A DNA stretch of 64,000 bases, from contig NZ_BAEG01000027.1 in NCBI RefSeq assembly GCF_000238915.1, forward strand, positions 62,001 through 126,000, written 5' to 3'. Position 1 is the first letter of the stretch, and each line of letters opens with the position of its first letter. Under the pieces are notes generated by a model, which saw nothing but the letters and a program-made list of their open reading frames with translations, was not told the origin of the DNA and did no database searches. The position numbers and the translations under genes are program-made. Source of the DNA: Arthrobacter globiformis NBRC 12137. Its GTDB lineage: Bacteria; Actinomycetota; Actinomycetes; Actinomycetales; Micrococcaceae. Positions 6,800 through 20,298 of the stretch are shown in pieces.

Positions 6800-8386
6800 C
6801 TACGCCTCCGGCACCGGCGCTCCCTCGCCGTTGCGGATGCGCTGGACCATGGCCGTGGTGGAGCGCTCGGCCACGTAATCGAGGATGGTCACCGTGCCGC
6901 CGTAGGCCTCCACGGCCTCGGTTTCGGCCAGCATCTCCGGCGTGTAGTCCCCGCCCTTGGCGTAGATTTCCGGCCGCAGCTGTTCGATCAGCGGAATCGG
7001 CGTCGGGGTGTCGAAGACGGTCACGTAGTCCACGCAGCTCAGGGCGGCGATCACTGCTGCCCGGTCGGCCACGCTGTTAATGGGGCGGTCGGGCCCCTTG
7101 AGCTTGCGCACGGAGTCGTCGCTGTTGAGCGCCACCACCAGGATGTCGCCGAGCTGCTTGGCCTGGTTCAGGTAGCGCGTATGCCCTCGGTGCAGGACAT
7201 CGAAGCAGCCGTTGGTCAGCACCACGCGCTGGCCGTCGCTGCGGTGGGCATGGATGTGCCGCTCCAGTTCGTCGGCCGCCAGCGCGGTGTCCGCGAAGCT
7301 TTCCAGGTAGCGGCCCAGCTCGTCCGTGCCGCATACCGACGTCCCGGGGTGGTGGACCACCACGTCCGCCGCCGCCTGTGCGAGGTCGAGGCTGGCCGTC
7401 AGCGGCAGCGACGCCGCACGCGCCAGGGTCAGCGCCGCCACGAAGGTGTCGCCCGCGCCGGAGGCCTGCTTCTCGGTAGCCGGCCGGGCCCACGTCCGGT
7501 GCGGGTTGCCGGCCGCCGGGATGAGCACCGTTCCGTCCCAGTCCAGCGTGACCACGACGGCGCGGGCTCCCGTTGCCTGCAGCAGCTCGCCGCCGTGCGC
7601 GGTCACCACGTCAGCGCGCCCGGGCCCATTGCCCAGCCTAAGGTCCAGCATCCTGGCCACCTCCTGCGCGTTGGGCGTGGCCAGGTCCGGCTCGAGCCCT
7701 GCCCACGGGCGGGGATCGTGCGCGTCCACCACCACCAGCGTGTCCTGCCCACGGCGGGCAAGGGTCTGGATGAGCCGGCTGCGCACCGGTTCCGCGAGGA
7801 CTCCGGTTCCGTAGTCGCAGATCACCACCGCGTCTTGGCGTCCGACGGCGGCGGGCACCGCCGCTGCGAACGTTGCCAGGGCGTCCGCCGGGACAGCTTC
7901 CGCGGAGTCGTCGAAGCGCAGCAGGACCTGGCCGCCGCTGCTGATCCGGATCTTGGTGGTGGTGACCATGCCCGGGTGTTCGGCGAGCAGTGCGGTGTCC
8001 ACCCCTGCGGCGAGCAGTTGGCGCCTAAGTTCCGCGCCGGCGTCGTCCGCTCCGATGATGCCGGCGACGCTCACGCGGGCACCGAGGGCGGCCAGGTTCA
8101 TGGCGGTGTTGGCGGCGCCGCCGGGGGCAAAGTCCCGCCGGTTGATGTCCACCACGGGAGCCGGGGCCTCGCGGCACATCCTGTCGATCGAGCCGGTCCA
8201 CCAGCCGTCGAGCATGAAGTCGCCCACGACAGTGATGGCCGGCTGCTCCTCGGCCAGCCTCCGGGGAAGCCACGCGGCGAGGCCGCGCTGTTCGGAAAGC
8301 ATTGGTTCGGAACGCATTGGTTCGGAACGCTGCCGCCCGCCGTCGTCCCCGGCGAGTCCTCCGGCGCCGGGTGCTGCGGCCGTCAC
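6800..8386 (-). CDS. hldE: Bifunctional D-beta-D-heptose 7-phosphate kinase / heptose 1-phosphate adenylyltransferase (copy 1)
   Basis: A 528-residue two-domain protein. Residues about 45-360 are a PfkB/ribokinase-type kinase, with substrate loop PGGAANTAMNLAALG and ATP/catalytic motif ASGAGDTF. Residues about 385-520 are a cytidylyltransferase-like domain with NGCFDVLHRGH (HxGH) and NSDDSVRKLKG. Together they phosphorylate D-glycero-D-manno-heptose 7-phosphate and later activate the 1-phosphate with ATP. E. coli HldE is about 477 residues; the surplus here is a variable N-terminus containing a duplicated RSEPM. Its GTG start overlaps the aldehyde dehydrogenase stop by 4 nt. Confidence 0.88.
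   Translation of the reverse strand: MTAAAPGAGGLAGDDGGRQRSEPMRSEPMLSEQRGLAAWLPRRLAEEQPAITVVGDFMLDGWWTGSIDRMCREAPAPVVDINRRDFAPGGAANTAMNLAALGARVSVAGIIGADDAGAELRRQLLAAGVDTALLAEHPGMVTTTKIRISSGGQVLLRFDDSAEAVPADALATFAAAVPAAVGRQDAVVICDYGTGVLAEPVRSRLIQTLARRGQDTLVVVDAHDPRPWAGLEPDLATPNAQEVARMLDLRLGNGPGRADVVTAHGGELLQATGARAVVVTLDWDGTVLIPAAGNPHRTWARPATEKQASGAGDTFVAALTLARAASLPLTASLDLAQAAADVVVHHPGTSVCGTDELGRYLESFADTALAADELERHIHAHRSDGQRVVLTNGCFDVLHRGHTRYLNQAKQLGDILVVALNSDDSVRKLKGPDRPINSVADRAAVIAALSCVDYVTVFDTPTPIPLIEQLRPEIYAKGGDYTPEMLAETEAVEAYGGTVTILDYVAERSTTAMVQRIRNGEGAPVPEA
8291..8330. repeat. 15-bp tandem repeat in the hldE N-terminus
   Basis: ATTGGTTCGGAACGC occurs twice in tandem (8301-8315, 8316-8330), with a degenerate partial unit TTCGGAAAGC before it (8291-8300). 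The unit is five codons, so copy-number change would keep the frame of HldE. It encodes the repeated residues RSEPM. Confidence 0.85.
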
Positions 8387-9822
8387 GATGCTGCCCCGTC
8401 GGTTTCATGAGCAGGGGGCGCAGCTTCACGGGCAGGCGGCGCCGCGATGTGCACCACCTTGACCCGGGTGAACTCATCCAGGAGTTCGGGGCCGTAGCCA
8501 AACCCATGCCCGCTTTCGCCCCGGGGCTGGGCGGCCCCGCCGGGTGCACCGCCGAAAACCTCGTTGACCTTGACGGTCCCCACCGGCAGCGCGGCCACGG
8601 CTTGCTGGGCGTGGGCGATGCTGCCGGTCAGAACGGTGGCGGCAAGTCCGTACCGGCCGGCCGCGGCGAGGGCCAGCCCTTCCTCGAAGCTGTCCACCAC
8701 ACGCACGGGAGCAACAGGGCCGAATGTCTCCTCGGCCATGACGTCCATGGTGTCGGCGCAGTCCACCAGGACCGTGGCCGGGTAGAAGGCTCCGGGCCCG
8801 ACCGGGACCGTGCCGCCCTCAATGGCTCGCGCGCCCAGCTGCAGCGCCTCGGCAACATGCCGGTGGACCGTGTCCCGCATCCGGGTATCCACGAGCGGCG
8901 CGAGGGGATGTTCCGTGTTGCGGTCCCGGGCCTGCCCGGCGAGCGCATGGCAGAACGGTTCGGCGATGGACCGGTGGACGTAGATCCGCTCCACCGACGT
9001 GCAGATCTGCCCGCTGTTGCTGAACGCCCCGATCGCAGCCTGCTCCGCGGCCCAGCCGGGGTCCACGTCCGCGTCCACCACCAGCGGGTCGTTTCCGCCG
9101 TTTTCCCTGATGACATAGGCACCCGTCAGCACCGCCGCCCGCGCAATCCGGTCACCGGTCGCGCTGGATCCGACGTGGGCGAACATGTCGACGTCAGGCT
9201 GCTGGGTCAGGAGGGTCCCGACGTCGGCCCCTCCGGTGAGCGTGACCAGCACGTTGGGCGGAAATACCGGCGCCACTACCTCCCCCAGCAGCTTTCCCAG
9301 GTGCGGGCACCGCTCGCTCGGTTTGTGAATGGCACTGTTCCCGGTAACCAGGGCCGCCCCGATGAGTCCGCACGCCACGGCGACGGGATCGTTCCACGGC
9401 GTCAGCAGGACGGCCACGCCGCGGGGCTCAGCGACCGTGTAATCAGCTGCAAGCGCGTTGCCGCGCAGGCTGTGCCCACGATGTACGGGTCCAAGTTCCG
9501 CGTACTGCTCCAGCGTGGAAACGCCGGCGGCAATGCCGGCAAGGGCTTCATCCAGCGGACGGCCGGTCTCCTGCGCGTTCAGTTCCGCAAGCCCGGCGGC
9601 GGCGGTGTCCAGCGCCCGGGCCGCCTCGCGCAGCAGCTTGCCGCGCTCCCCCGGAGGCGTTGCCGCCCAGCCGGGCTGGGCAGCGCGGGCAGCCGCCACG
9701 GCTCCCGCCACATCATCTGTTCCGGCGACGGAAAGACTGCCGACAGGTTCCCCGGTTCGCGGGTTCAGGATGGTGAGCACATCTTCCGCGTTTGTCAGCT
9801 CACCGGTGATGGTCGATTGCAT
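8383..9822 (-). CDS. Aldehyde dehydrogenase family protein
   Basis: A 479-residue NAD(P)-dependent aldehyde dehydrogenase of normal family length. The general-base Glu lies in IRENGGNDP (usual form ELGGK/N-P), and the nucleophilic Cys in NSGQICTSVERIYV. It resembles benzaldehyde/vanillin and succinate-semialdehyde-type dehydrogenases; the substrate is unresolved. The ATG at 9822 is chosen for the GAGGAG just upstream. It is translationally coupled to hldE (GTGA overlap), so it may act on a sugar-derived aldehyde in the same pathway. The C-terminal 20 residues repeat APPA. Confidence 0.85.
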   Translation of the reverse strand: MQSTITGELTNAEDVLTILNPRTGEPVGSLSVAGTDDVAGAVAAARAAQPGWAATPPGERGKLLREAARALDTAAAGLAELNAQETGRPLDEALAGIAAGVSTLEQYAELGPVHRGHSLRGNALAADYTVAEPRGVAVLLTPWNDPVAVACGLIGAALVTGNSAIHKPSERCPHLGKLLGEVVAPVFPPNVLVTLTGGADVGTLLTQQPDVDMFAHVGSSATGDRIARAAVLTGAYVIRENGGNDPLVVDADVDPGWAAEQAAIGAFSNSGQICTSVERIYVHRSIAEPFCHALAGQARDRNTEHPLAPLVDTRMRDTVHRHVAEALQLGARAIEGGTVPVGPGAFYPATVLVDCADTMDVMAEETFGPVAPVRVVDSFEEGLALAAAGRYGLAATVLTGSIAHAQQAVAALPVGTVKVNEVFGGAPGGAAQPRGESGHGFGYGPELLDEFTRVKVVHIAAPPAREAAPPAHETDGAAS

Positions 9823-9990
9823 GGGGCTCCTCACTGGGGATTGGCCTGCTGCTCAGAGTTTTGGCGGTCCGTTCCCGCACTCTCTGAGGTGATCCGTACC
9901 CCGGCGCCGAAGGGTTTACACGCGCCGGCAGCAGGAGTTTTTCGGGCCGGCGGGCTGGATCCCGTTGAGTACGCGGGCCGGGTTCTCCGG

Positions 9991-10026
9991 GCTGGAAATA
10001 CAGGTTTTCCAAGCTGGCAATACAGG
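9991..10026. promoter_or_regulatory. Direct repeat in the divergent control region of the heptose locus
   Basis: GCTGGAAATACAGG (9991-10004) and GCTGGCAATACAGG (10013-10026) match at 13 of 14 positions. Their starts are 22 bp apart, two helical turns. They lie in the 291-bp gap between the divergent starts of the aldehyde dehydrogenase/hldE unit (9822) and the glycosyltransferase (10114). The arrangement suits a regulator binding one face of the DNA. The rest of the gap holds no gene. Confidence 0.5.
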
Positions 10027-10113
10027 GCCGATGCACCGTAGGGTGGGCCCCACTACCCACCCGACCTGAACGCATCCTGACCTAAACCATCCGGAACCGA
10101 GAGGGCTGACACC

Positions 10114-11358
10114 TTGGAACTCATCAACGCCGACTTCGGCGGAGCACGCATCACAGGCCACGGAATCGGCCCGGTTTTGGAAGAATTCGGCGGTGTTTCC
10201 CGCATCGCTGTCCTCCGTGGCGGCGGGCTCGGTGACCTGATGTATGCCCTCCCGGCGGTGGCAGCCCTGAAGGCCGCCTACCCTGGGGCCAGCGTCACCC
10301 TGCTGTGCGCGCCGGTCCAGGCTGAACTGCTGTCGCAAACCGTGGGACCGGTGGATGAAACGGTGATTCTGCCGTTTGCCGAGGGGGTCCGCCCGGGGCC
10401 GGAAGACCCTCACGAAGTGGAGCGGTTTGTTGCCGGGATGCGCGCCAGGAACTTTGACCTGGCCGTCCAGGTGCACGGTGGCGGCCGGTACTCAAATCCG
10501 TTCCTGCTCCGCCTCGGCGCACGCCACACCGTGGGCACCAGAACCCCGGACGCAGCTCCGCTCGAGCGGACCGTGCCCTACGTGTACTACCAGCACGAGC
10601 CGCTCCGTGCCCTCGAGGTGGCGGGGTTCGCAGGGGCTCCTCCCCGTGAGCTGGAGGCCCGACTCCAGGCTCTGCCGGAGTTCATCCAGCGGCTCGGGCA
10701 GGCGCTGCCCCTGGGAAATGGCGGGTTGGCCAAAGGCGGGTCGGGGCGCGGCGACGGCGGGCCGGGGCACGGCCGGGTGCTAGTGATCCATCCGGGTGCG
10801 ACGGATCCGCGCCGGCGCTGGCCGGCTGAACGCTTCGCCGCGGTTGCCCGGAGGGCCGCCGACGACGGCTTCCGGGTTTATGTGGTGGGCGACAGCAGCG
10901 AAAAGGAACTGGCCGAGACGGTTGTGGAACTCGCCCTCGAGCAGGCCGGAACAGGACAGGCCGGAACAGGACACGCTGCAGAAGCCCGCCCGGCCGTAGA
11001 GTCGCTGGCCGGCAACCTCAGCCTCGGTGAGCTGGCCGCACTGCTAACGGGCAGCACCGTCGTGGTGGCGAACGACAGCGGACCGCGCCACCTCGCCCAG
11101 GCTCTCGGCACCTCCACCGTGGGCATCTACTGGGCGGGCAATGCCATCAACGCAGCCCCGCTGGGCCGCAGTAAGCACCGGGTCCGTCTGGGCTGGGTCA
11201 CGCGTTGCCCGGTGTGCGGCGTGGACGTCACCCAGGTCGGGTGGACGGCCCCACGGTGCCCGCATGACGAGTCCACCGTGAAGGCCGTCGAACCCTCAGA
11301 GGTTTACGAGGATGTACTCCAGCTCACGGCCATGAGCCCTCTTCCTCATGGCAGATAA
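10114..11358 (+). CDS. Glycosyltransferase family 9 (heptosyltransferase-like), copy 1
   Basis: A 414-residue GT-B glycosyltransferase of the WaaC/WaaF family. The N-terminal domain begins with RIAVLRGGGLGDLMYALPAV (residues 30-49), the family-9 hallmark. The C-terminal domain carries VIHPGATDPRRRWP and NDSGPRHLAQALGT, which in heptosyltransferases contact the ADP-heptose donor. It is inferred to transfer heptose to a cell-surface acceptor in the cytoplasm. A Cys-rich tail (CPVCG...RCPHD) is present. The start is TTG at 10114 after GAGAGGG. A glycine-rich linker (about 205-225) and a 15-bp repeat mark it as variable. It overlaps the convergent SDR by 35 bp. Confidence 0.85.
   Translation: MELINADFGGARITGHGIGPVLEEFGGVSRIAVLRGGGLGDLMYALPAVAALKAAYPGASVTLLCAPVQAELLSQTVGPVDETVILPFAEGVRPGPEDPHEVERFVAGMRARNFDLAVQVHGGGRYSNPFLLRLGARHTVGTRTPDAAPLERTVPYVYYQHEPLRALEVAGFAGAPPRELEARLQALPEFIQRLGQALPLGNGGLAKGGSGRGDGGPGHGRVLVIHPGATDPRRRWPAERFAAVARRAADDGFRVYVVGDSSEKELAETVVELALEQAGTGQAGTGHAAEARPAVESLAGNLSLGELAALLTGSTVVVANDSGPRHLAQALGTSTVGIYWAGNAINAAPLGRSKHRVRLGWVTRCPVCGVDVTQVGWTAPRCPHDESTVKAVEPSEVYEDVLQLTAMSPLPHGR
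10942..10971. repeat. 15-bp tandem repeat inside the GT9 gene
   Basis: CAGGCCGGAACAGGA is present twice in tandem (10942-10956, 10957-10971). It encodes the repeated pentapeptide QAGTG in a loop between the ADP-sugar-binding segments. Being 15 bp, it leaves the frame intact. Confidence 0.85.
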
Positions 11359-12025
11359 GCATTTCGCGGACCTCGCAGCCGGTGGGCTGGGACAGGACGA
11401 ACAGGATTGCCTGCGCCACGTTGCCGGGATCATTCAGGCGTGAATCGTCCTGCGGCTTGTATTGCTCAGCGCGGTCGTCGAAGAAGCGGGTCTTCATGCC
11501 GCCTGGGATCATGGTGGTCACGCCGATCTCGCCGCCCGTTTCAGCCGCCAGGGAATGGCTGAAGCCCACCACCCCGAATTTGGAGGCGCAGTACGCTGTG
11601 GCCTCCGGCAGTGCCCGCTTTCCCAGCGTGGACGCGATGGTGACCACCCGGCCGCGGGACTCCTTAAGGTACGGAAGGGCAGCCCGGACGACGGAAACCG
11701 TGCCCATCAGGTTGACCCCGATGACGCGTTCCCATTCCTCCGCGGCCACGTCCTCCAGCTTGCCGCACCGGTCGATGCCGGCCGCCGTGACCACGGCATC
11801 CAGCCCGTCCAGGGTCTCGGCCGCCTGCCGTACTGCCTCGGTCACGGCTACGCGGTCCGAGACGTCCACTTCAAATGCCTTCGCCGCGGAGACGTTCCGG
11901 ATGTCCCGGTCCAGCACCACCGGGGTTCCCCCGGCTTTCAGCACGGCATCGACGACGGCGGCCCCCAGTCCGGAGGCACCGCCGGTTACCAGGACCCGGC
12001 CGGGCCGGATAGTCGATTCAGTCAT
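11324..12025 (-). CDS. SDR family oxidoreductase in the heptose locus
   Basis: A 233-residue classical short-chain dehydrogenase. It has TGGASGLG (residues 15-22), the catalytic Ser (IASTLG), and Tyr/Lys in YCASKFG. The N-terminus binds NAD(P). It lies 63 bp after hldE2, in the same direction, with AAAGGAAC before its ATG, so it is probably the last gene of the long glycan operon. It could reduce or oxidise a heptose or an acceptor sugar, but this is inferred only from position. It is not an extended SDR and does not look like HldD epimerase. Confidence 0.8.
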   Translation of the reverse strand: MTESTIRPGRVLVTGGASGLGAAVVDAVLKAGGTPVVLDRDIRNVSAAKAFEVDVSDRVAVTEAVRQAAETLDGLDAVVTAAGIDRCGKLEDVAAEEWERVIGVNLMGTVSVVRAALPYLKESRGRVVTIASTLGKRALPEATAYCASKFGVVGFSHSLAAETGGEIGVTTMIPGGMKTRFFDDRAEQYKPQDDSRLNDPGNVAQAILFVLSQPTGCEVREMLICHEEEGSWP

Positions 12026-12088
12026 GGTGTTCCTTTCAGTCGGGTCTAATGTCAGGTTTGTGTGGCGGTTCCGCTGAGCATGGCCAGT

Positions 12089-13462
12089 TCAGCTGACCTT
12101 GGCCAGGGCGTCCGCGAGGACTGAGGTGGACCGGGCCGGGTGGAACGGCACCGTCATGCAGCGCCCTCCCCAGCTCTCGACCAGCCCCGCTTCGGGCAGC
12201 TCCGAGGCGCGGTAGTCGCCGCCCTTCACCCAGACGTCCGGGCGCAGCGTCGCCAGGCAGGCCTCCGGCGTGTCCTCCCCGAAAACCAGGACGGCGTCCA
12301 CGCACTCGAGTGCCAGCAGGAGCTCGGCCCGGTCCTGCTGGCTCACGATCGGCCGTTCCTCGCCCTTGATCCGGCGCACCGACTCGTCCGAGTTCAGGCA
12401 CACGATCAGGCAGTCGCCGAGGTCCCTGGCCGCCGACAGCGTGCGGGCATGGCCTGCGTGCAGCAGGTCGAAGCAGCCTCCGGTGGCCACGACGGTTCCT
12501 CCGTTGGCGCGAACCCGCCGGGCAAGGCCGACGGCGTCTTCCTCGCGGCTGTGGTGCCAGACCGGGCGGTGGCGGTCCGGCAGGGAGGCCACCCCGCCAG
12601 CGCCGAGGAAGGCGGCCGCTGCATTTATGGCCCGTTCCGCTGCCTCCTGCAGGCTGCGGCCTTCCGCCAGGTGCACGGCCAGGCTTGCCGCGAGCCGGTC
12701 GCCGGCGCCGCAGGGATCCGCGACCTCGGTGGCAGGGGCCGGGATGGCCACGGGCGGGGTGTCGGGCCGGGACAGCAGGCCACCGCGCTCCCCCATGGTC
12801 ACAAGGACCGCCTGGCTTTGCCAGCGGTCCAGCAGTGTTTCGCCGAGGGCGCTGCCGACGGCGGGAATAGCCCCAGGCGTTCCAACGCCGGAATCTGCGG
12901 CCTTGGCGGCCTCGGACAGGTTGGGCGTCACGACCGCCACCCCCGGCACGGGCATGGCGCCGGACGGATGCGGGTCCCACACGATCGGAATGTCACCGGC
13001 GCGGGCCGCGAGCATCTCGCGGATCTCCGGGTTCGCGGCAACGCCCCTTCCGTAATCGGCCACGACGATCACCTCGGCCTGGTCCAGCGCCCTGAGCATG
13101 CCCGCGGTGGCCGCCGGTACTTCCGGCCGCTCGCATCCCTCGTCCACCCGCACCACCGGCTGGCTGCCCGCCCGCACCCGGGTCTTCACAGGCGTTTTCG
13201 CACCGGAAGGCCCGGACACAACCCGCACGCCGGCGAGCGCGCCTTCCAGTGCCAGGGAGGCGTCGTCGTCGGAAAGCACTGTCACCAGGGTGACCCGGTG
13301 GCCGTCGTGGGCCAGCATCCGGGCCACGAGCCCGGCACCGCCGGCCCGGCGCCGGACGTCGGAGACGTCCACCACGGGCACGGGCGCGTCGGGGCACAGC
13401 CGGGTTGCTTCGCCGGAAAGGTCCACGTCCAGCAAGACGTCGCCCACTACTGTGATCCTCAT
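12089..13462 (-). CDS. hldE: HldE-like bifunctional kinase/nucleotidyltransferase (copy 2)
   Basis: A 457-residue paralogue of the protein at 6800-8386 with the same two-domain plan. The kinase domain (residues 1-300) keeps DPCGAGDRLAASLA with the catalytic Asp. Its sugar loop reads RAGGAGLVARMLA and lacks the Asn of the usual GGAANxAxN. The C-terminal domain has the full nucleotidyltransferase set: GGCFDLLHAGH, NSDESVRRIKG and WVKGGDY. It may therefore work mainly as the adenylyltransferase, or on a modified heptose. Its ATG overlaps the gmhA stop (ATGA, 13459-13462), placing it sixth in a tightly coupled operon. Confidence 0.83.
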   Translation of the reverse strand: MRITVVGDVLLDVDLSGEATRLCPDAPVPVVDVSDVRRRAGGAGLVARMLAHDGHRVTLVTVLSDDDASLALEGALAGVRVVSGPSGAKTPVKTRVRAGSQPVVRVDEGCERPEVPAATAGMLRALDQAEVIVVADYGRGVAANPEIREMLAARAGDIPIVWDPHPSGAMPVPGVAVVTPNLSEAAKAADSGVGTPGAIPAVGSALGETLLDRWQSQAVLVTMGERGGLLSRPDTPPVAIPAPATEVADPCGAGDRLAASLAVHLAEGRSLQEAAERAINAAAAFLGAGGVASLPDRHRPVWHHSREEDAVGLARRVRANGGTVVATGGCFDLLHAGHARTLSAARDLGDCLIVCLNSDESVRRIKGEERPIVSQQDRAELLLALECVDAVLVFGEDTPEACLATLRPDVWVKGGDYRASELPEAGLVESWGGRCMTVPFHPARSTSVLADALAKVS

Positions 13463-14262
13463 CCGCGATCAGCCCCCGGCCCGGGAACGCCCTGGCCCCT
13501 GCGGGCCACTTCAGCTTCGAAGGCCCGGCAAATTGCGTGCAGCGCAATCAGGTGCCCCTCCTGCGCGTTAGCGGAGATGGCATCGATGGCCACAGCGTCG
13601 TCGCAGCAGGAAGCCAGCGGGTTGGGCGCCGGGCCGGTCAGGGCCCACGTGGTCACGTTCAGCCTGGCCGCCGCCTCGGCCGCCCGGAGCAGGTTGGGGC
13701 TCTGTCCACTCGTAGACAGCAGCACGAGGATGTCCCCGGATCTGCCGTGGGCGCGGACCTGCCGCGCGAAGAGTTCCGCGTAGCCGTAGTCATTGGCGAT
13801 GGCCGTGACGGCCGAACTCTCCGCGTGCAGGGAGATCGCGGAAAAGGGCATCCGGTCGCCGTCGAACCTGCCCACAAGCTCCGCGGTCAGGTGCTGCGCC
13901 TCGGCGGCGGACCCGCCGTTCCCGGCGGCGAGCAGCTTCTGCCCGCTCAGCAGTCGCTGGGCCAGTTCCACGCCCCAGCCGGCCAGCCTGTCGGCCTGGC
14001 TTTCCAGGGACCGGAGGGCAGGCAGGACGTTTTCCAGGTGGGTCCGCACAGCCTGCTGCGACCCCAAGGCGGCTTCGTGCAGCGACGCGTCCTGCCCGGC
14101 CCTGTCCGGCCGGGCTCTGTCTGGAGAAGCGACGTCCGGAGAAACCCCGTCTGGAGAAACCCCGTCCGGTGAGGAAGTTGCGGGAGGTGGGGAGAAACCG
14201 GACCGGGCGCCAACCCGGTGCACGGCGGGAAGTTCAGCCTCCCGCAGGGATTCGGGAGTCAC
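13459..14262 (-). CDS. gmhA: Sedoheptulose-7-phosphate isomerase
   Basis: A 267-residue SIS-domain protein that converts sedoheptulose 7-phosphate to D-glycero-D-manno-heptose 7-phosphate, the first step of ADP-heptose synthesis. The core (residues about 65-260) has AAGNGGSAAEAQHLTAELVG, the phosphate-binding and catalytic-Glu region, STSGQSPN, and AQEGHLIALHAIC with the catalytic His. The first 60 residues are an extra Pro/Asp/Ser-rich segment made of repeated SPDGV-like pentapeptides, absent from the roughly 190-residue standard enzyme. The start is GTG with GGAAGGAG upstream. It overlaps the genes on both sides by 4 nt. Confidence 0.88.
   Translation of the reverse strand: MTPESLREAELPAVHRVGARSGFSPPPATSSPDGVSPDGVSPDVASPDRARPDRAGQDASLHEAALGSQQAVRTHLENVLPALRSLESQADRLAGWGVELAQRLLSGQKLLAAGNGGSAAEAQHLTAELVGRFDGDRMPFSAISLHAESSAVTAIANDYGYAELFARQVRAHGRSGDILVLLSTSGQSPNLLRAAEAAARLNVTTWALTGPAPNPLASCCDDAVAIDAISANAQEGHLIALHAICRAFEAEVARRGQGVPGPGADRG
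14104..14178. repeat. 15-bp tandem repeat array in the gmhA N-terminus
   Basis: About five units of 15 bp follow each other from 14104. The best are GTCTGGAGAAGCGAC (14119-14133), GTCCGGAGAAACCCC (14134-14148) and GTCTGGAGAAACCCC (14149-14163). Flanking units are more diverged. On the coding (minus) strand they specify SPDGV/SPDVA/RPDRA pentapeptides. The frame is preserved by any whole-unit change. Confidence 0.85.
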
Positions 14263-15512
14263 AGTGCCGCTCCTTCCATCGGTTCCATGCTGCCTGCGTC
14301 AGCGGTGCCTGCGATGGCCAGCTGGTAGGCCTTTTCGGTTTCCGCGGCGACCCTGCTCCAGGAGTAGCGGGCCTTCGCCCGCCGCTCGCCCGCCTGCCCG
14401 AGTTTCGTGCGAAGGTCCGGGCTGGCCAGCAGCGTTCCGAGGGCGTCTGCGATGGCTTCGGGGTCCTTGGGCGGCACGTGCAGGCCGGTTCCGCGGTCCA
14501 CGACGCTGTCCGTCAGGCCGCCAACTGCAGCGGCAACCACCGGAACGCCGCAGGCCATCGCCTCCAGGGGCACAATGCCGAAGGGCTCATACCAGGGCGT
14601 GCACACCACAGCGTCCGCGCTTCGGAAAATGCCGGGCATGGCGTCCCTGGGCACCTGGCCACGTAGCTCCACATGGCCCGCCACGCCGAGCTCCCGGGCA
14701 AGGTCCAGCAGCCTGCGCGCTTCCGGGTCCTGCCCGCCCGCGTCCGCCCCGCCGCCCACGATCAGCAGCTCAAGGTCGTCGAATCCCGCGTTCAGCAAGT
14801 ACGGCAGCGCGCGGATCACCAGGTCCACACCCTTGCGCGGAACCAGCCGGCCCACGGAGAGGATCCGGTGGAAACGGGACGTCGCGTCGGCCGGGCCCTC
14901 GCTGGAGAAGAGGTCCAGGTCCACCCCGCAGGGAGCGATGGAAACCCTGCGGGTATCGATCCCCATCGCCCGAAGCTCGAAGACCTCATCGGAGCAGGTG
15001 GCCACGATGCGGTCCGCCGAGCGGCCCACGGACGGTTCGAGGAACCGCCTCTCGGCGGGGCTCGTGTCGGCGGCACCCTGGTGGCGGCGCTTGACCGTGC
15101 CCAGCGCGTGGAAGGTCTGCACCACGGGAACCCGGAAACCGCCGGGCTCGCGGCGTGCAGCGTCCAGGGCGGCCACGCCGGACATCCAGAAGTGGCCGTG
15201 CACCACGTGCGGCGGCGAATGACCCCAGTCCTGCACCACGCCGTCCGCCAGCTCGCCCATGAAGGGCAGCAGCTCGTCCTTGGGCACCTGCTCGGCGGGC
15301 CCGGCGTCCACATGGACCACCTCGAGCCGGGGATGCACCTGCACCCGCGCGGGCAGGCCGGGCGCGTCCCGCCTGGTGTACACAGTCACCCGGTGGCCCC
15401 GCCGCGCGAGGGCCGATGACAGGGCGGCAACATGTACGTTCTGGCCGCCCGCGTCCACTCCGCCTAGCGCTGCCAAAGGACTGGCGTGTTCCGAAATCAT
15501 CGAGATCTTCAC
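14259..15512 (-). CDS. Glycosyltransferase family 4
   Basis: A 417-residue GT-B retaining glycosyltransferase. The N-terminus has EHASPLAALGGVDAGGQNVH, the acceptor-side glycine loop typical of sucrose-phosphate-synthase/MshA-like GT4 enzymes. The C-terminal half has SVGRLVPRKGVDLVIRA and the E-x7-E motif EPFGIVPLEAM that binds the nucleotide-sugar. It probably adds a hexose or inositol-type sugar to the same glycan as its neighbours. The start is GTG at 15512, overlapping the upstream gene by 4 nt; the downstream gmhA start overlaps its stop in the same way. Confidence 0.87.
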   Translation of the reverse strand: MKISMISEHASPLAALGGVDAGGQNVHVAALSSALARRGHRVTVYTRRDAPGLPARVQVHPRLEVVHVDAGPAEQVPKDELLPFMGELADGVVQDWGHSPPHVVHGHFWMSGVAALDAARREPGGFRVPVVQTFHALGTVKRRHQGAADTSPAERRFLEPSVGRSADRIVATCSDEVFELRAMGIDTRRVSIAPCGVDLDLFSSEGPADATSRFHRILSVGRLVPRKGVDLVIRALPYLLNAGFDDLELLIVGGGADAGGQDPEARRLLDLARELGVAGHVELRGQVPRDAMPGIFRSADAVVCTPWYEPFGIVPLEAMACGVPVVAAAVGGLTDSVVDRGTGLHVPPKDPEAIADALGTLLASPDLRTKLGQAGERRAKARYSWSRVAAETEKAYQLAIAGTADAGSMEPMEGAAL

Positions 15513-16576
15513 TGGGTATTCCTTTCTCGCGCCGCGGACAGGGCATCCGGTCCGGACACCTTCAAAGCTGCATCCCCCGATGCCACCCTCTCCTGAGACC
15601 CCCTTTGCGGCCTGGCCGCCCCCAGATCTGCCAGCACCTGGTCCCAGTCCGCCAGGAACCGCTCAAGTCCGTAGCGCTCCAGCGCCGCCTCCCGCGCCGC
15701 CTTGCCCCGCCGTCGGGCCTCCTCCGGGTCGTTGACCAGCAGCCGTGCACACCGGCGCAGCTCCTCCACATCCGTGGAGATGCAGCCCGCCTCGGGCGGG
15801 ACGGCCCGCGCCGCCTCAGTGGTGGCCAGGGCCAGGACCGGCATGCCAAGGTGCATCGCCTCCAGCAGGGCCAGCCCCAGGGAAGTCCAGCGCAGCGGGT
15901 GCAGGTATGCCCGGCAGCGCGACAGTTCCCGGTGGAGCTCTGTGGTTTTCAGATCGCCCCTGATAACGAGGCGCGGCGCCGGGATTCCGGTGGCCTCGGC
16001 CAGCCCGTCGCTGCCCATGCCGAAGACCTGAAGCGGGGCGGCAGTGGCGAAACGGGGCAGCAGGTCCGTTCCCGTCACGCGTCCGCGGCGCACCGGTTCA
16101 TTGACCACCACGCCCAGTTCCGGGACCTCGCCTGTGTAGAGGTAGCCGGGGTCCGCGATGCCGTGCTCGATGACCTTGGTGCGTGCCTTGCCGCTGTCCC
16201 AGAACAGCTCGTTGAAATGGGTCACGTGGACGATCGGGATGTCGCGCTGCTCCCCCAGCGGATGGACGGTGAACGGAACATCGCCCTTGGGCGTGTTGTG
16301 TTCCACGTACACGGCGGGAAGATCGACGCCGGGACGGCGGCCAAGCACGCGCGTCACCTCCGCGGCTTCCTCCGTCCGCTGAAGCACGACGGCGTCAATG
16401 CTGCCGGCGTCCAGCTCGGCGAGCGCGACCTCCCGCACCGAAGCGGGCCAGTCCCGGCCGGCCCGGCCCAGTCCCCAGGACCCGCCACCGGGCAGGACCG
16501 GCAGCAGGTACTCGTGCCGGCCGCGGACGAACGCATCCGTCCACGACCCGTGCACGTGCCAGAGCAGAATTCTCAT
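15509..16576 (-). CDS. Glycosyltransferase, GT-B fold (GT4-like)
   Basis: A 355-residue protein starting MRILLWHVHGSW, a beta-strand/Gly-Ser acceptor loop seen in polysaccharide glycosyltransferases. VYVEHNTPKGDVPF lies in the N-terminal domain. The C-terminal domain has HPLRWTSLGLALLEAMHLGM, the second half of the donor-binding E-x7-E region with the first Glu replaced. It is less standard than its GT4 neighbour, so donor and acceptor are open. It is the third gene of the overlapping operon, with ATGA at 16573-16576 shared with the upstream GT9 gene. Confidence 0.78.
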   Translation of the reverse strand: MRILLWHVHGSWTDAFVRGRHEYLLPVLPGGGSWGLGRAGRDWPASVREVALAELDAGSIDAVVLQRTEEAAEVTRVLGRRPGVDLPAVYVEHNTPKGDVPFTVHPLGEQRDIPIVHVTHFNELFWDSGKARTKVIEHGIADPGYLYTGEVPELGVVVNEPVRRGRVTGTDLLPRFATAAPLQVFGMGSDGLAEATGIPAPRLVIRGDLKTTELHRELSRCRAYLHPLRWTSLGLALLEAMHLGMPVLALATTEAARAVPPEAGCISTDVEELRRCARLLVNDPEEARRRGKAAREAALERYGLERFLADWDQVLADLGAARPQRGSQERVASGDAALKVSGPDALSAARERNTQ

Positions 16577-17649
16577 TGTTTCCTGACCTTTCTGCGTGTG
16601 CTGAGAGAGGAGACCCCGCCCAGCAGGCGTTCCACCGCCTCCACCACCTGTTCCGGCGAAACCGAGCTGAGGCAGGGATGTCCCGGCACCGGACAGATGC
16701 GTGCGCGGCTAAGCCGGCACGGTGCGTTCTGGTCCCCCAGCAGTTCCAACGGGACGCCGTACGGCGCCCAGCGGACAGCGGGGACAACGGGGGAAAACAG
16801 GCTCACCACCGGGGTTCCGACGGCGGCGGCCAGGTGTGCGGGCCCGGTGTTTCCGGTGACCACAACGTCTGCGTTGGCCAGGACACCGGACAGGGTGGAG
16901 AGGTCCGTCCGGCCACCCAGGTCGACGGCGGAGGGGCCGGCCACGGTTGCGGTGAGGTCAGTTTCCCCGGGGCCGCCGGTCACCACCACCCGGTGGCCCG
17001 CACCCTCCAGCAGTTCCACCGCCGCCGCATGGTGCAGCGGCGGCCAGGCCCGGGCGGGCACTGTTGCCCCGGGGTGGACTACGACGTAGGGGCCGTCACC
17101 CACCAGGTGCCGGGTGCCGGGAGGGTCCTTGACCGCGAGTTTGCCGTCATCACCCGCCCTGAGCCGGAAGCCCGCCGCCCGGGCGATGCCGAGCGCCCGC
17201 ACGGACTCCGGCTGGTCCTCGGGAAAGTCCTCGCCGGGTTTGAGCCGGACATCCAGCAGGGAACCCGCATAGTCGGTGGAGGCTCCGGTGATACGCTCCA
17301 CGCCGGCCAGCCGCAGCAGGAGCGCCAGGGGCAGCGGCGACTGGTGGAAGGAGGTGAGAATGACCGCCTCGGTGATACGGGAGTTCCGGACATAACCCAC
17401 CAGCGAGTCGAGGTGCGGGCCGGTCACCTGCGGCGCCGGATTGCTGATCCACGGCGTGTCCCAGGCAAAAACGTCGGCGACGTTGGGCAACAGTGAAGCT
17501 GCCGCCTGGCCCTGCGGGCCGCAAAGCACGACGACGTCGTTGGGGCTGCCGCCGTCGGCCCGCCGCCCATTGGCGACGGCCCGGACCGCCGGGCCCGCCA
17601 GGAGAACGTCGCCGACGCTGTCCAGCCGAGCCACCAGGACCCTGCTCAT
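16573..17649 (-). CDS. Glycosyltransferase family 9 (heptosyltransferase-like), copy 2
   Basis: A 358-residue GT9 enzyme. MSRVLVARLDSVGDVLLAGP is the N-terminal family signature, with the Asp that in WaaC acts as base. VVHPGATVPARAWPP and TGNTGPAHLAAAVGTPVVSL bind the sugar nucleotide. ATG 17649 is chosen, although the frame is open farther upstream, because it overlaps the gmhB stop by 4 nt and starts exactly at the domain. The Cys-containing tail (CRLSRARICPVPGHPC) is shared in style with copy 1. It is predicted to add heptose to a surface glycan precursor. Confidence 0.87.
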   Translation of the reverse strand: MSRVLVARLDSVGDVLLAGPAVRAVANGRRADGGSPNDVVVLCGPQGQAAASLLPNVADVFAWDTPWISNPAPQVTGPHLDSLVGYVRNSRITEAVILTSFHQSPLPLALLLRLAGVERITGASTDYAGSLLDVRLKPGEDFPEDQPESVRALGIARAAGFRLRAGDDGKLAVKDPPGTRHLVGDGPYVVVHPGATVPARAWPPLHHAAAVELLEGAGHRVVVTGGPGETDLTATVAGPSAVDLGGRTDLSTLSGVLANADVVVTGNTGPAHLAAAVGTPVVSLFSPVVPAVRWAPYGVPLELLGDQNAPCRLSRARICPVPGHPCLSSVSPEQVVEAVERLLGGVSSLSTRRKVRKQ

Positions 17650-18197
17650 GCCGGTCCTCGAAGCAACGGTGCCTGGAGCAGCAGCGCGACGGCCTGCTCG
17701 AGGTCCGCGGCAACCTCGGCGGCGGCCTCGACTTCTTCGGTTCTGGTCTGCGGAGTGGGAACCAGTACGCCCCGCGCGCCGGCGGCCGCGGCCGCTTCGA
17801 CGTCGCTGCCGATGTCGCCGATGAACGCCGCCTCTGACGGGTCGATGCCAAGGCGCCGGCAGGCGCTGTGGATCATGCCCGGCGCCGGCTTCCTGCACAA
17901 GCACCCCTCACCGGCTGCGTGCGGGCAGACCTCCCAGACGTCGAAGGGGCCCAGGAGATCCTCCACCCGCGCGTTCACGCTGTCCACTTCCTCCGCTGTC
18001 AGGAGGCCTCGGGCAATGCCCGACTGGTTGCTTAGGACGCCGGTGGCCAGGCCCCGGCTGCGCAGCCTGTCGAGGACACTCCTCGCGCCGGGATACGGCT
18101 CCACCCGCTGCGGATCACCGTTGTACGGCACATCAACCACGAGCGTTCCGTCCCGGTCGAACAGCACAGCCTTGAGCACCAAAGCGTTAGTTGCCAT
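17646..18197 (-). CDS. gmhB: D-glycero-D-manno-heptose 1,7-bisphosphate 7-phosphatase
   Basis: A 183-residue HAD-family phosphatase, normal for GmhB, that removes the 7-phosphate between the two HldE reactions. The nucleophile motif is FDRDGT (residues about 12-17), motif II is SNQSG, and the zinc-binding cluster CPHAAGEGCLCRKP characterises GmhB and histidinol phosphatases. GDIGSDVEAA is motif IV. ATG 18197 is chosen for its GGAGGGGG and because the fold starts there. It is the first gene of the six-gene overlapping operon, transcribed from the 115-bp region shared with the GT9 gene at 18313. Confidence 0.88.
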   Translation of the reverse strand: MATNALVLKAVLFDRDGTLVVDVPYNGDPQRVEPYPGARSVLDRLRSRGLATGVLSNQSGIARGLLTAEEVDSVNARVEDLLGPFDVWEVCPHAAGEGCLCRKPAPGMIHSACRRLGIDPSEAAFIGDIGSDVEAAAAAGARGVLVPTPQTRTEEVEAAAEVAADLEQAVALLLQAPLLRGPA

Positions 18198-18312
18198 ACC
18201 CCCTCCGTTCCCCGACTGGGAGAGACCTAAACAACTGGCCGCCCACTTCTTCTCGGCTAGACTCCTCGACAAGCGGCCCCAGGGGCTGACGCCGAGGAGC
18301 AGAAGGACGGCA

Positions 18313-19257
18313 GTGGAAGCACTGAACGGCAAGCACGAACAACCGGTCCTGCTAGTGCTGAGGGCCCTGAAGCTGGGCGACCTGCTGGTTGCCGTGCCGG
18401 CGCTCCGAGCGCTGCGGCGTGCCTATCCGGAACACCGCCTGCTCTATGCGGCCCAGGACTGGCTGGAAGATGCGCTGGAGCTGGTGGGCGGCTACGAACT
18501 GCTCCCGACCCATGGCCTGGATGTTCCGATTCCCATCGAGACTGGCACGGTGGACATAGCAGTGAACCTGCACGGCAGCGGACCCGAAAGCGAGGCCCGG
18601 CTCGCTGCCGTGCAGCCAAGGACCATCGTCGGCCACCAAACCCCCGAGCGGCCTGGCCCCGCCTGGCTGGAGGGAATCCATGAGCGCGAGCGGTGGACCA
18701 GGCTGCTGCAGTGGCACGGCATTGACGCGGAACCGGACGATTTCCGGCTGCTCCCGCCCGCCGTTTCCAGCCTCTGCCCCGGTGCCACCGTGGTGCATGT
18801 GGGGGCCGCCTACGGCAGCCGTCTGTGGCCGGAGGACCGCTTCGCCGAAGTGGCCCGCACCCTCTCGGAGGATGGCCACCAGGTGGTGTTCACCGGCAGC
18901 TCGGCGGAACGGCCGCGGGCACTGCACGTCGCACGGCTCGCCGGCCTCCCGGAAGACCAGGTCCTGGCGGGGCGGCTGCGGCTGGCCGAATTCATGGCCG
19001 CCGTCGCGGAGTCCCGGCTGGTGGTGTCAGCGGACACCGGTGCCGCACACCTCGCCTCTGCCTATTCGCGGCCTTCGGTGGTGCTTTTCGGTCCGGCCCC
19101 GGCCGAGGTCTGGGGGCCGCCACCTGGGCCTCACATTGTGCTGACGGACGCTCAGGCGCGGCGCGGCGACACCTTCGCGGCAACCCCGGACCCGGCCCTG
19201 CTGGCAGTCACGGTGGAAGACGTATTGGCGGCTGTCGGGCAGCTCCGGCCCGTCTGA
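18313..19257 (+). CDS. Glycosyltransferase family 9 (heptosyltransferase-like), copy 3
   Basis: A 314-residue GT9 protein. VLLVLRALKLGDLLVAVPAL (residues about 12-31) is the family start. HVGAAYGSRLWPEDRFAEVA and SADTGAAHLASAYSRPSVVL are the donor-binding motifs. The start GTG at 18313 has GAAGGA upstream; a frame open to 17755 lies over gmhB and is ignored. It diverges from gmhB, so the two heptose units share a control region. Its last 106 bp overlap the 3' end of the convergent sigma factor gene, an unusually long overlap of coding ends. Confidence 0.85.
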   Translation: MEALNGKHEQPVLLVLRALKLGDLLVAVPALRALRRAYPEHRLLYAAQDWLEDALELVGGYELLPTHGLDVPIPIETGTVDIAVNLHGSGPESEARLAAVQPRTIVGHQTPERPGPAWLEGIHERERWTRLLQWHGIDAEPDDFRLLPPAVSSLCPGATVVHVGAAYGSRLWPEDRFAEVARTLSEDGHQVVFTGSSAERPRALHVARLAGLPEDQVLAGRLRLAEFMAAVAESRLVVSADTGAAHLASAYSRPSVVLFGPAPAEVWGPPPGPHIVLTDAQARRGDTFAATPDPALLAVTVEDVLAAVGQLRPV

Positions 19258-20120
19258 TCCGCACCGACCCGCCCGCTGCCCGCCGGGGCGCTGCCTGGCC
19301 TGGTGCTGCCTGTCCTGGTGCTGCCTGTCCGGCAGCTGTCCGTGGTTCCGCCCCGGCCCTCCTCGTCGAGCAGCCGGCGCTGTAACCAGACCAGGATCCG
19401 GGAGAGGCGCCGGGACACCTGCATCTGTGAGATGCCGAACCGTTTGCCCAGTTCCACCTGGGTCTCCTCGCGAAAGTACCGCCGGTACAGCATTTCCCGG
19501 TCGTCAGGGTCCAACTCCTGGATCGCCTCATTGAGGCACACGAGCTCTTCGAGGTGCTCGATCGGCTGGTCCAGCGAGACAAGCCCCTCGCCCATGGCTG
19601 GTCCGCCCCACGGATCGGGGCTGTCCAGCGAGTCGGGATGCATGCTGCTGCCTGCTGCCTGGGCCTCCCGGACGTCAGCCGGGGTGACTCCCAACTCGCT
19701 GGCCAGCTCCTGCGCCGAGGGAACACGCCCCAGTGACTGGGCCAGGTCCGGGGCGGCATGAAGGAGTTGCGTCCGGACGTCCTGGACATGCCGCGGCGGC
19801 CGGACGGTCCAGCACCGGTCCCGCAGAAAGCGCTTGAGTTCGCCGTTAATAGTGGGCGCGGCATAGGCCGGGAAACTTTCGCCCTTTTCCTTGTCAAAGC
19901 CGCGGGCGGCCTTGATGAGCCCCAGGTAGGCCACCTGGACAAGGTCGGAGCGCTCGCGTCCGCGGGCGACGTACCGCGAAGCGAGCGACTCTGCCAGGTC
20001 GAGGTAATTGAGTACCAGTTGGTTCTGGAAGGCATCGTGCAGCCGTCCGGCCCGGGTCGCTGGCTGCGGTGCTGCGCAAGCAGGGAAGGACGCGGACAAG
20101 GAGGGCGGGGTTTCTGGCAT
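19152..20120 (-). CDS. SigB/SigF-type RNA polymerase sigma factor with C-terminal extension
   Basis: A 322-residue group 3 sigma-70 factor of the stress/sporulation type. Region 2 is at about residues 45-110 (RSDLVQVAYLGLIKAARGFD, then FPAYAAPTINGELKRFLRD). Region 3 is at 120-170, and region 4 at 200-255 with the helix-turn-helix RFGISQMQVSRRLSRIL. ATG 20120 is chosen for the AAGGAA upstream. The last 60 or so residues, beyond region 4, are low-complexity Thr/Gly/Ser/Arg repeats. They read through a 15-bp repeat and then into the end of the convergent GT9 gene. A palindromic element at 20185-20198 lies 65 bp upstream, hinting at autoregulation or membership of a stress regulon. Confidence 0.88.
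   Translation of the reverse strand: MPETPPSLSASFPACAAPQPATRAGRLHDAFQNQLVLNYLDLAESLASRYVARGRERSDLVQVAYLGLIKAARGFDKEKGESFPAYAAPTINGELKRFLRDRCWTVRPPRHVQDVRTQLLHAAPDLAQSLGRVPSAQELASELGVTPADVREAQAAGSSMHPDSLDSPDPWGGPAMGEGLVSLDQPIEHLEELVCLNEAIQELDPDDREMLYRRYFREETQVELGKRFGISQMQVSRRLSRILVWLQRRLLDEEGRGGTTDSCRTGSTRTGSTRPGSAPAGSGRVGADQTGRSCPTAANTSSTVTASRAGSGVAAKVSPRRA
19291..19335. repeat. 15-bp tandem repeat in the 3' tail of the sigma factor gene
   Basis: CTGCCTGGCCTGGTG (19291-19305), CTGCCTGTCCTGGTG (19306-19320) and CTGCCTGTCCGGCAG (19321-19335) form three near-identical units. On the minus strand they encode the repeated TGSTR-like pentapeptides after sigma region 4. They start 34 bp after the stop of the convergent GT9 gene. 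Confidence 0.85.
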
Positions 20121-20184
20121 TGTCGTGGATTCCTTCGATCGGGAGGTCGAGAAAGCCTGCGGCAAGACTTAGAAGTAGGAAATC

Positions 20185-20198
20185 ATAAGCGTGCTTAT
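20185..20198. promoter_or_regulatory. AGCATGCTTA-type palindrome upstream of the sigma factor and epimerase
   Basis: ATAAGCGTGCTTAT (6-bp arms, 2-bp centre) lies in an AT-rich island between the divergent sigma gene (start 20120) and epimerase gene (20299). It resembles the elements at 22103, 27638, 40661, 47270 and 52196. Confidence 0.55.
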
Positions 20199-20298
20199 TA
20201 CACAATGCCCTGAGACGCTAGGCTCGAAAGAAGCACCACGGCCACGGCCCGTCGTCGGGCGGCCGGAACATCCCACGGCAACGGACGGAGAGCATTTC

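Follow-up and report, generated by a model that had tools for sequence, protein, structure and literature searches.

A cwg-type locus for predicted NDP-heptose synthesis and transfer in Arthrobacter globiformis

The window examined here, a 64,000-nucleotide stretch of the Arthrobacter globiformis NBRC 12137 genome, carries a compact cluster of sugar-nucleotide and glycosyltransferase genes at 6.8-19.3 kb (Table 1). A sequence-only reading had proposed that gmhA, gmhB and two hldE genes in this cluster make up a full gene set from sedoheptulose 7-phosphate to ADP-D-glycero-beta-D-manno-heptose, with three GT9 and two other glycosyltransferases among them. All of these genes were recovered by family models, beyond chance, and the two other glycosyltransferases are of the GT4 type. 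Isomerase, kinase, phosphatase and nucleotidyltransferase are all represented, completing the gene set up to NDP-heptose. Five successive 4-nt overlaps join gmhB, GT9b, GT4b, GT4a, gmhA and hldE2, and the 3' end of the neighboring sigma gene overlaps GT9c. Across the whole genome, the only GT9 genes found are these three and the only hldE genes found these two, and the window gmhB is the sole one of three matches to TIGR01656 (histidinol-phosphatase/GmhB-type) to exceed the cut-off. A simple hydropathy scan found no clear membrane protein in the cluster, and no flippase, polymerase or ligase was found among the core genes.

Table 1 Genes of the predicted heptose locus (window coordinates)
Gene	Position	Strand	Assignment and remarks
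hldE1	6800..8386	-	heptose-7-P kinase / heptose-1-P nucleotidyltransferase; homologous region starting near residue 48
ALDH	8383..9834	-	aldehyde dehydrogenase; 4-nt overlap with hldE1; 15/20 genus loci
GT9a	10114..11358	+	heptosyltransferase-like, R192 and D261; 9/20 genus loci
SDR	11324..12025	-	SDR oxidoreductase; follows hldE2 after 63 nt; 20/20 genus loci
hldE2	12089..13462	-	second HldE; module core; cwgI position
gmhA	13459..14262	-	sedoheptulose-7-P isomerase; cwgH position; family matches start at residues 78-100
GT4a	14259..15512	-	MshA / sucrose-phosphate-synthase-like glycosyltransferase; cwgG position
GT4b	15509..16576	-	GT4-type glycosyltransferase; module marker; cwgF position
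GT9b	16573..17649	-	heptosyltransferase-like; Asn at WaaC D261; cwgE position
gmhB	17646..18197	-	HAD-IIIA heptose-1,7-bisphosphate 7-phosphatase; cwgD position; ATG start, possible TTG start at 18332
GT9c	about 18313..19257	+	heptosyltransferase-like, R192 and D261; cwgJ family; divergent; 9/20 genus loci
Sigma gene	19152..20165	-	SigB/SigF/SigG family; beside module in 20/20 genus loci; candidate regulator

The strength of these assignments varies between enzymes. The hldE1 product scored 367.6 bits against the full-length HldE model and 196.7 bits against the TIGR02199 nucleotidyltransferase domain (cut-off 181.5), and the hldE2 product 298.6 bits against the HldE model and, for TIGR02199, 180.9 in one search and 183.7 in another. 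GmhA matched its family model with 155 bits, gmhB the beta-type GmhB model with 114.2 bits, and GT9a, GT9b and GT9c each exceeded the Pfam GT9 cut-off. When the NCBI equivalog models for the heptose pathway are applied, the HldE nucleotidyltransferase domain is the one component to attain the curated cut-off; the scores for GmhA, GmhB and the kinase domain of HldE are clear, yet remain under their own. Stretches of GmhA align with solved phosphoheptose isomerases, and both HldEs keep the GAGD (kinase) and H-x-GH (nucleotidyltransferase) motifs.

The locus recurs among Arthrobacter relatives, where the sequence-only reading had suggested looking for it. The six-gene run from gmhB to hldE2 is colinear at 20/20 genus, 17/20 order and 4/20 class loci, as well as at 52 of 58 named loci, a set that leans toward one family branch because it was chosen as the best 80 of 568 relatives (less 22 loci under 19 kb). 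At least six of the seven core genes were found at 20/20 genus, 17/20 order, 15/20 class and 57/58 named loci; GT9c, core elsewhere, is present at only 9 of the 20 genus loci. Colinearity of the run extends to named Streptomyces, Geodermatophilus and Micromonospora. The GT4b marker occurs in 79 of 121 genus genomes, which comparison of the genome lists showed to be exactly the set with an HldE match at E < 1e-50, and in 39 genomes among 396 drawn from across the phylum, possibly an undercount since only five first-look candidates per genome were scored. Based on gene content and order, the locus is a rearranged member of a family spread in Actinomycetota: the earlier placement of the pathway in a Gram-positive actinobacterium stands, but not as an oddity of one actinobacterium, since the family is scattered through the phylum.

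A separate group of genes at 23756-26924 (PIG-L/methyltransferase, GT2, acyl-CoA dehydrogenase) was considered as part of the system and, from the distribution of its PIG-L/methyltransferase gene, judged a neighbor rather than a partner. Of 61 genus genomes, 42 carry this gene; hldE is missing from 13 of these 42, and 10 further genomes have hldE only. Where both lie on one contig, they are 12-16 kb apart in 14 of 15 genomes and 33 kb apart in the other.

The closest described counterpart of this locus is cwg of Streptomyces coelicolor, a 12-gene, vancomycin-inducible cell-wall-stress operon under sigmaE control (SCO6179-6190), in which cwgH has been described as a phosphoheptose isomerase and cwgI as a bifunctional synthase/transferase. 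Our comparison rests on these published gene descriptions and on S. coelicoflavus, in which homologues of the 12 genes occur in order, with gmhA eighth and hldE ninth, as for cwgH and cwgI, and with hldE and GT9c standing 0.7 kb apart. The seven core genes lie there in the order gmhB, GT9b, GT4b, GT4a, gmhA, hldE, GT9c; the window retains the order of the first six, whereas its GT9c is divergent and upstream rather than last. The window lacks the epimerase, carbamoyltransferase, cwgC-type glycosyltransferase and last two glycosyltransferases of cwg, and has instead the SDR, hldE1, ALDH, GT9a, divergent GT9c and adjacent SigB/F-type sigma gene. Carbamoyltransferase, epimerase and cwgC-type glycosyltransferase were matched at 0/20 genus loci, and the carbamoyltransferase, found in 4/4 positive-control genomes, is absent from the window's own genome, so that the product need not equal the Streptomyces one. 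Judged by its shared core, the window locus is a cwg-type locus, a variant of the operon family corresponding to S. coelicolor cwg. In the literature, neither a cwg product nor an HldE-dependent actinobacterial glycan was named in titles or abstract starts among the matches listed, and a paper on an Actinoplanes polysaccharide gave no match to the terms used.

The two HldEs differ in origin. A recent duplication was rejected, as HldE1 (n = 27) and HldE2 (n = 72) formed separate clades (supports 0.96 and 0.91) in a tree rooted on E. coli HldE. To limit its size, the tree omits 56 of the 156 proteins, all belonging to the named set, and each HldE1/HldE2 label is that of the best-matching window query. 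HldE1 is, on this topology, anciently distinct from HldE2, and the putative HldE1-ALDH-GT9a group would be a further heptose unit that evolved separately and was joined to the core. The window gmhA and hldE2 are separate, out-of-frame ORFs with no fusion, while gmhA and hldE lie in one frame at 11 of the 55 loci having both matches. Tang et al. 2022 reportedly describe, going by the title, heptose synthetases, including tridomain NDP-heptose synthetases, in actinobacteria. As far as that title indicates, the neighboring window genes correspond to such a synthetase in unfused form, with the isomerase (GmhA) encoded in one ORF and the kinase/nucleotidyltransferase (HldE2) in another.

Both HldEs also carry an arginine that bears on nucleotide use. 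A (F/L)xxG-R-STT motif with Arg at position 5 (STTR5) has been reported to be tied to CDP- and UDP-heptose synthesis by NTP-promiscuous nucleotidyltransferases. This Arg is present in both window proteins (YVAERSTT and FHPARSTS), but Glu or Ala stands in place of the motif Gly; the E. coli protein has Cys. The residue suggests that the window HldEs may make CDP- and UDP-heptose besides ADP-heptose, and while ADP-heptose is retained as a predicted product, the earlier label of an ADP-heptose pathway is perhaps too narrow.

Residues of the GT9 proteins bear on the configuration of the sugar. D,D-heptosyltransferases have been reported with Arg at the position of WaaC K192, and GT9 heptosyltransferases share the signature D261(T/S)(G/A)xxH266, in which position 261 contacts the heptose (PMC3559599). 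Counted over proteins in an alignment excluding partial matches and proteins with internal stops, Arg occupies the 192 column in 19/19 GT9a, 127/127 GT9b and 102/108 GT9c sequences, and Asn replaces Asp261 in 127/127 GT9b sequences; a second residue count, made by motif pattern rather than from this filtered alignment, has a different denominator. R192, E222 (mostly) and H266 are conserved across the GT9s; GT9a and GT9c fit the signature, and GT9b departs from it at 261. The donor of GT9b could therefore differ, although WahF, with S261, indicates that a change at this position is compatible with activity (PMC3559599). In line with the sequence-only reading, no HldD reached the model threshold: the six model matches in the whole genome all fell below cut-off, the best at 90.8 vs. 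274.6 bits. An NAD-epimerase gene at 20191-21363 was tried as HldD and rejected, with no HldD model among the 15 families matched and a best score of 67 bits to another model. Since no HldD exceeded the cut-off and all three GT9s carry R192, the heptose is expected to be of the D,D form, as previously proposed.

Comparison with other heptose systems places these features in a broader context. The LPS inner-core pathway (GmhA, HldE, GmhB, HldD, WaaC/WaaF) shares the NDP-heptose enzyme families and GT9 transferases with the window, which differs in having no HldD above cut-off, Arg for Lys at 192, Asn261 in GT9b and an actinobacterial host. Burkholderiaceae plasmid clusters (L117, L120, L204 and L205) encode homologues of gmhB, GT4a and GT4b together with two GT9s, and comparison of six of these GT9s with the window GT9s and WaaC/WaaF segments revealed the same R192/N261 and R192/D261 pairing at the three loci aligned. 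Like cwg and unlike the window, these clusters include genes for a carbamoyltransferase and for an epimerase of the UDP-glucuronate-decarboxylase type; neither gmhA nor hldE was matched in the 29-kb stretch examined. Finally, deletion of gmhD, a GDP-route gene of Rhodococcus ruber YYL, has been reported to abolish a capsular polymer (PMC12298843, PMC12786566). As described there, that system likewise has a heptose nucleotidyltransferase gene in an actinobacterium, one needed for the capsular polymer, which offers a precedent for an envelope role of heptose in this phylum; it differs in being GDP-activated, with a separate guanosyltransferase and no HldE.

Taken together, we consider the best explanation (probability about 0.6) to be a cwg-type operon making NDP-heptose for an envelope glycan, its enzyme activities, D,D form, acceptor, export and envelope location all being predicted. 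GmhA would convert sedoheptulose 7-phosphate to heptose 7-phosphate, the HldE kinase domain would form the beta-1,7-bisphosphate, GmhB would strip the 7-phosphate, and the HldE nucleotidyltransferase domain would yield NDP-heptose (ADP-, perhaps also CDP- and UDP-heptose). GT9b and GT9c would then transfer D,D-heptose, with GT4a and GT4b attaching other residues. We infer the surface location by analogy, from the sigmaE link of cwg.

With no flippase, polymerase, ligase or clear membrane protein in the core, the product may instead stay inside the cell, and a heptosylated small molecule that is soluble or secreted (a specialized metabolite, compatible solute or thiol-like glycoside) is an unlikely alternative. 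The lack of any clear membrane or export protein extends to the five extra Streptomyces-type proteins. GT4a is similar to MshA and sucrose-phosphate synthase, and Foldseek matches to the predicted GT4b structure include BshA, enzymes of a kind that use small soluble acceptors; a heptose antibiotic, septacidin, is also made by a Streptomyces. Against such a product, S. coelicolor cwg is induced by vancomycin and answers to envelope stress through sigmaE; conservation is wide and spans the operon, unlike that of a specialized-metabolite cluster; and the Rhodococcus surface polymer, so far as it is described, provides a heptose precedent.

The same GT4b structure also matched SdgB, solved with bound peptides, and GT9b weakly matched the Aah/TibC model, which would fit a cytoplasmic protein heptosylation like that of Aah/TibC on autotransporters. 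That match (18.6 bits) is far under the cut-off of 200, however, and the core showed no conserved acceptor protein; this reading is highly improbable. Repurposing of the enzymes to another sugar phosphate, with GT9s using a non-heptose donor, is improbable to a lesser degree: three of the assignments (GmhA, GmhB, HldE kinase) lie below their cut-offs and GT9b has Asn at a heptose-contacting position, but the pathway genes are kept together at one locus in most lineages examined, and the conservation of R192, E222 and H266 noted above also speaks for a heptose donor.

Beyond the envelope-glycan operon itself, a wider scenario can be put forward tentatively, as possible though somewhat doubtful. 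Many Actinomycetota lineages, and Burkholderiaceae megaplasmids, may carry a cross-phylum, stress-linked family of D,D-heptose glycans, to which the window would belong, with a fixed GT9 pair, in which N261/R192 would define a new heptosyltransferase class and NTP-promiscuous HldEs would supply CDP- or UDP-heptose; many of these glycans would be carbamoylated, the Arthrobacter-type branch having swapped this decoration for the HldE1-ALDH-GT9a unit.

Actinobacterial heptose synthetases (Tang 2022) and a GDP-route heptose gene for a Rhodococcus surface polysaccharide are, as those sources present themselves, already published. New here, as predictions from aligned residues, are the GT9 Arg at WaaC K192, the invariant Asn261 of GT9b and the STTR5 Arg in both HldEs. 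A role of the locus as a source of ligand for the host sensor ALPK1, as earlier suggested, is a possible but generic idea, given published reports that enzymes for NDP-heptose are widespread; more Gram-positive soil bacteria would be expected to carry such ligands. Recognition of the locus as a heptose operon brings with it a predicted D,D configuration, a core common to Streptomyces and Arthrobacter, and a Burkholderiaceae counterpart. The roles of CDP- and UDP-heptose have been reported as elusive, and the locus bears on where these nucleotide sugars might be used.

The heptose locus of the window is a real, conserved operon that stands apart as a variant within the cwg family, named after the 12-gene, sigmaE-controlled cell-wall-stress operon of Streptomyces coelicolor (SCO6179-6190), and it is not unique to its source organism. 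Gene calls at 6.8-20.2 kb came from a reading-frame survey combined with family searches, with predicted start codons (see table). The sequence-only reading had described a heptose gene set with three family-9 transferases (GT9a-c) and no HldD, the 6-epimerase of the L,D-heptose branch. That observation stands: gmhA, gmhB, two hldE genes, the GT9s, and the GT4s were all located by family searches, the three GT9s and two HldEs are the only ones detected in the genome (4.95 Mb, 124 contigs, 99.97% complete), and the six genome-wide matches to the HldD model all fell far under its cut-off.

Features of the window locus and of loci compared with it
Feature	Position	Strand	Remarks
gmhB-GT9b-GT4b-GT4a-gmhA-hldE2	within 6.8-20.2 kb	minus	successive 4-nt overlaps
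SDR	63 nt downstream of hldE2	minus	reading-frame survey and family searches
ALDH, then hldE1	beyond SDR	minus	4-nt overlap between ALDH and hldE1
GT9a and GT9c	within 6.8-20.2 kb	plus	reading-frame survey and family searches
Sigma gene, SigB/F/G family	beyond GT9c		205.7 bits against a subfamily cut-off of 234
GT2, PIG-L deacetylase/NodS-like methyltransferase fusion, acyl-CoA-dehydrogenase-like gene	window 23756-26924	minus	head-to-tail overlaps
HldE1-like and GT9a-like pair	L097:8360-12388; L098:8415-12512; L113:9652-13400
Protein pairing a caspase-like domain with a protein kinase domain	L097:14251-16917
GT4b homologue (52%) and GT9a-like hit	L118:12001-14000		Clavibacter californiensis mobilizable plasmid pCCa

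Among the encoded enzymes, the HldE nucleotidyltransferase domains scored at or touching the curated cut-off, while GmhA, GmhB, and the HldE kinase domains had good scores that were nevertheless under their respective cut-offs. Motifs are intact in both HldEs, and GmhA aligned to solved phosphoheptose isomerases across the NGGSA, STSG, and QE-H...H stretches. GmhB fits the beta-type model better (114 bits, cut-off 178) than the alpha-type (54 bits, cut-off 250). We infer that GmhA, GmhB, and both HldEs are enzymatically active.

A search across relatives, as proposed by the sequence-only reading, showed the locus to be widespread in the genus. HldE domains scored above cut-off in 78/121 genus, 22/297 order, and 80/394 class genomes (64 order genomes at E <= 1e-20, partly with weak scores of ~80 bits, and 93 class genomes at E <= 1e-35), these draws overlapping in some genomes. 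The GT4b profile matched 79/121 genus genomes, exactly the set with an HldE hit at E < 1e-50; a single genome with one weak HldE hit (G044, 1e-21) is the sole difference between the GT4b and HldE lists. Phylum-wide, 39/396 genomes matched GT4b, possibly an undercount. From the hits we then hand-picked, for spread and long contigs, three sets of 20 loci, one from the genus, one from the order outside this genus, and one from the class outside the order, and compared them alongside 80 named loci, 58 of which spanned at least 19 kb. The six-gene colinear run from gmhB to hldE2 was found in 20/20 genus, 17/20 order, 4/20 class, and 52/58 named loci. Of the seven core genes (the run plus GT9c), six or more were present in 20/20, 17/20, 15/20, and 57/58, respectively, and all seven in 9/20, 17/20, 12/20, and 54/58, the class loci mostly holding the core genes in an often rearranged order. 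The module is split in L106-L108, three class loci that belong to a single genus (g96), with GT4b and GT4a ~5 kb away from gmhB. In L106 and L107 this gap is occupied by the genes for the epimerase, carbamoyltransferase, and GT, and L106 also has a gene for a UDP-glucose/GDP-mannose dehydrogenase after GT9c. The PIG-L/NodS-like fusion gene listed in the table occurs in 42/61 genus genomes, 13 of them lacking hldE.

The likeness to cwg was judged from gene order in Streptomyces coelicoflavus (L189), where the homologues of all 12 genes form a single colinear run (epimerase, carbamoyltransferase, GT, gmhB, GT9b, GT4b, GT4a, gmhA, hldE, GT9c, GT, GT), and from published descriptions of the S. coelicolor genes. 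In the latter, the eighth of 12 genes, cwgH, is described as a phosphoheptose isomerase, cwgI (ninth) as a bifunctional synthase/transferase, cwgJ (tenth) as a transferase, and cwgD (fourth) as a 'dehydratase' (PMC5839063), a label we read as a HisB-like annotation of a GmhB-type phosphatase. On this basis, the window locus is read as a core of the cwgDEFGHIJ type that lacks cwgA, B, C, K, and L. The strict 12-gene order was annotated in 15/146 loci (L052-L091, L097-L202), including named Streptomyces and Actinacidiphila, and on a Streptomyces plasmid, whose cwgA, B, C, K, and L versions served as five extra query proteins and matched nothing among the 20 genus loci. The carbamoyltransferase was absent from the source genome and matched in 4/4 positive-control genomes. 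On a linear plasmid of Streptomyces sp. CA-256286 (L119), STAS, ANTAR, PP2C, CBS, and CsbD genes flank the cwg-type run, as in a general-stress island.

HldE1 is present in all 20 genus loci, ALDH in 15, and GT9a and GT9c in nine each. HldE1 and HldE2 form two distinct clades, which rules out a recent copy as the source of the second HldE. HldE1-like and GT9a-like genes are neighbours in L097, L098, and L113, with the cwg core missing from the same 20-kb stretch; L113 additionally carries a GT9c-like gene, and L097 comes from a genome (G501) in which another HldE and a GT4b lie at other sites. These pairs suggest that a small heptose unit exists separately in other actinobacteria, and that HldE1 and GT9a represent a second heptose unit joined to the cwg core in the Arthrobacter-type branch. 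Arthrobacter sp. StoSoilB13 has a copy of the locus on a plasmid of 1 Mb, 92.1% identical to genus locus L067 across alignments that sum to 18.7 kb, and the 18.8-kb Clavibacter stretch (L118) yielded no gmhA, gmhB, or hldE match.

Residues of the GT9s bear on sugar configuration. Key WaaC residues are D13, K192, E222, D261, and H266; of the seven L,D-heptosyltransferase groups tabulated, six have Lys at 192 and one, WahF, has N/T, both D,D groups show R or N/R, and the authors consider the significance of such differences not clear (PMC3559599). All three window GT9s align Arg at 192, as do 19/19 GT9a, 127/127 GT9b, and 102/108 GT9c sequences, the other six GT9c having Lys. H266 is conserved throughout, E222 in 16/19, 116/127, and 104/108, respectively, and position 261 is Asp in 18/19 GT9a and 108/108 GT9c and Asn in 127/127 GT9b. 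Together with the missing HldD, Arg 192 points to D-glycero-D-manno-heptose as the probable GT9 donor, so that the D,D form expected from sequence is supported, short of proof. As for the nucleotide, Arg at position 5 of (F/L)xxGxSTT is reported to enable CDP- and UDP-heptose synthesis in addition (PMC11573728, PMC11461863). Both window HldEs have this Arg, where E. coli HldE has Cys, and lack the preceding Gly. Since it occurs in 73/128 HldE2 and 15/27 HldE1 (window included; totals count 18 and two sequences, respectively, that yielded no motif), the Arg varies across the family and is not universal.

We infer an envelope location for the product by analogy, because cwg is a vancomycin-induced sigmaE target (PMC6767563) and a Rhodococcus ruber gmhD mutant (GDP-heptose route) reportedly loses its capsular polymer (PMC12298843, PMC12786566). 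The main rival is a soluble product. No cluster protein is clearly membrane by a simple hydropathy scan, with lone borderline segments in ALDH, GT4a, and GT9c. The predicted GT4b model (pLDDT 82.5) resembles BshA, TarM, SdgB, sucrose-phosphate synthase, and PimB-type enzymes among the 50 matches listed (13-19% identity, query TM-scores 0.52-0.67), a modelled likeness that does not fix the acceptor.

A GT4b search of plasmid records matched 14 records, 10 of them Burkholderia, Paraburkholderia, Caballeronia, and Cupriavidus plasmids (35-38%). Of five loci fetched, four have gmhB, two GT9s, GT4b, a GT4a homologue, a further GT, carbamoyltransferase, and an epimerase of the UDP-glucuronate-decarboxylase type within one stretch; matches were fewer in the remaining locus, L206, with no carbamoyltransferase among them. 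GT9 pairs aligned from three loci comprise one R192/N261 and one R192/D261 member. Near the carbamoyltransferase-bearing clusters (L117, L120, L204, L205) lie PIG-L deacetylase and GT genes, and in L117 also BON-domain, DUF2795, and DUF4142 genes. As WapO-type enzymes are described to carbamoylate LPS core heptose in Pseudomonas (PMC8005017), a reasonable guess is that cwg and the Burkholderiaceae clusters, not the window, would make a carbamoyl-heptose product.

No name for the cwg family product was found in the literature searched. We put forward five points: that the Arthrobacter-type locus corresponds to cwg, that its GT9s predict a D,D heptose, that GT9b has an invariant Asn, that the second HldE arose separately, and that Burkholderiaceae carry a counterpart.
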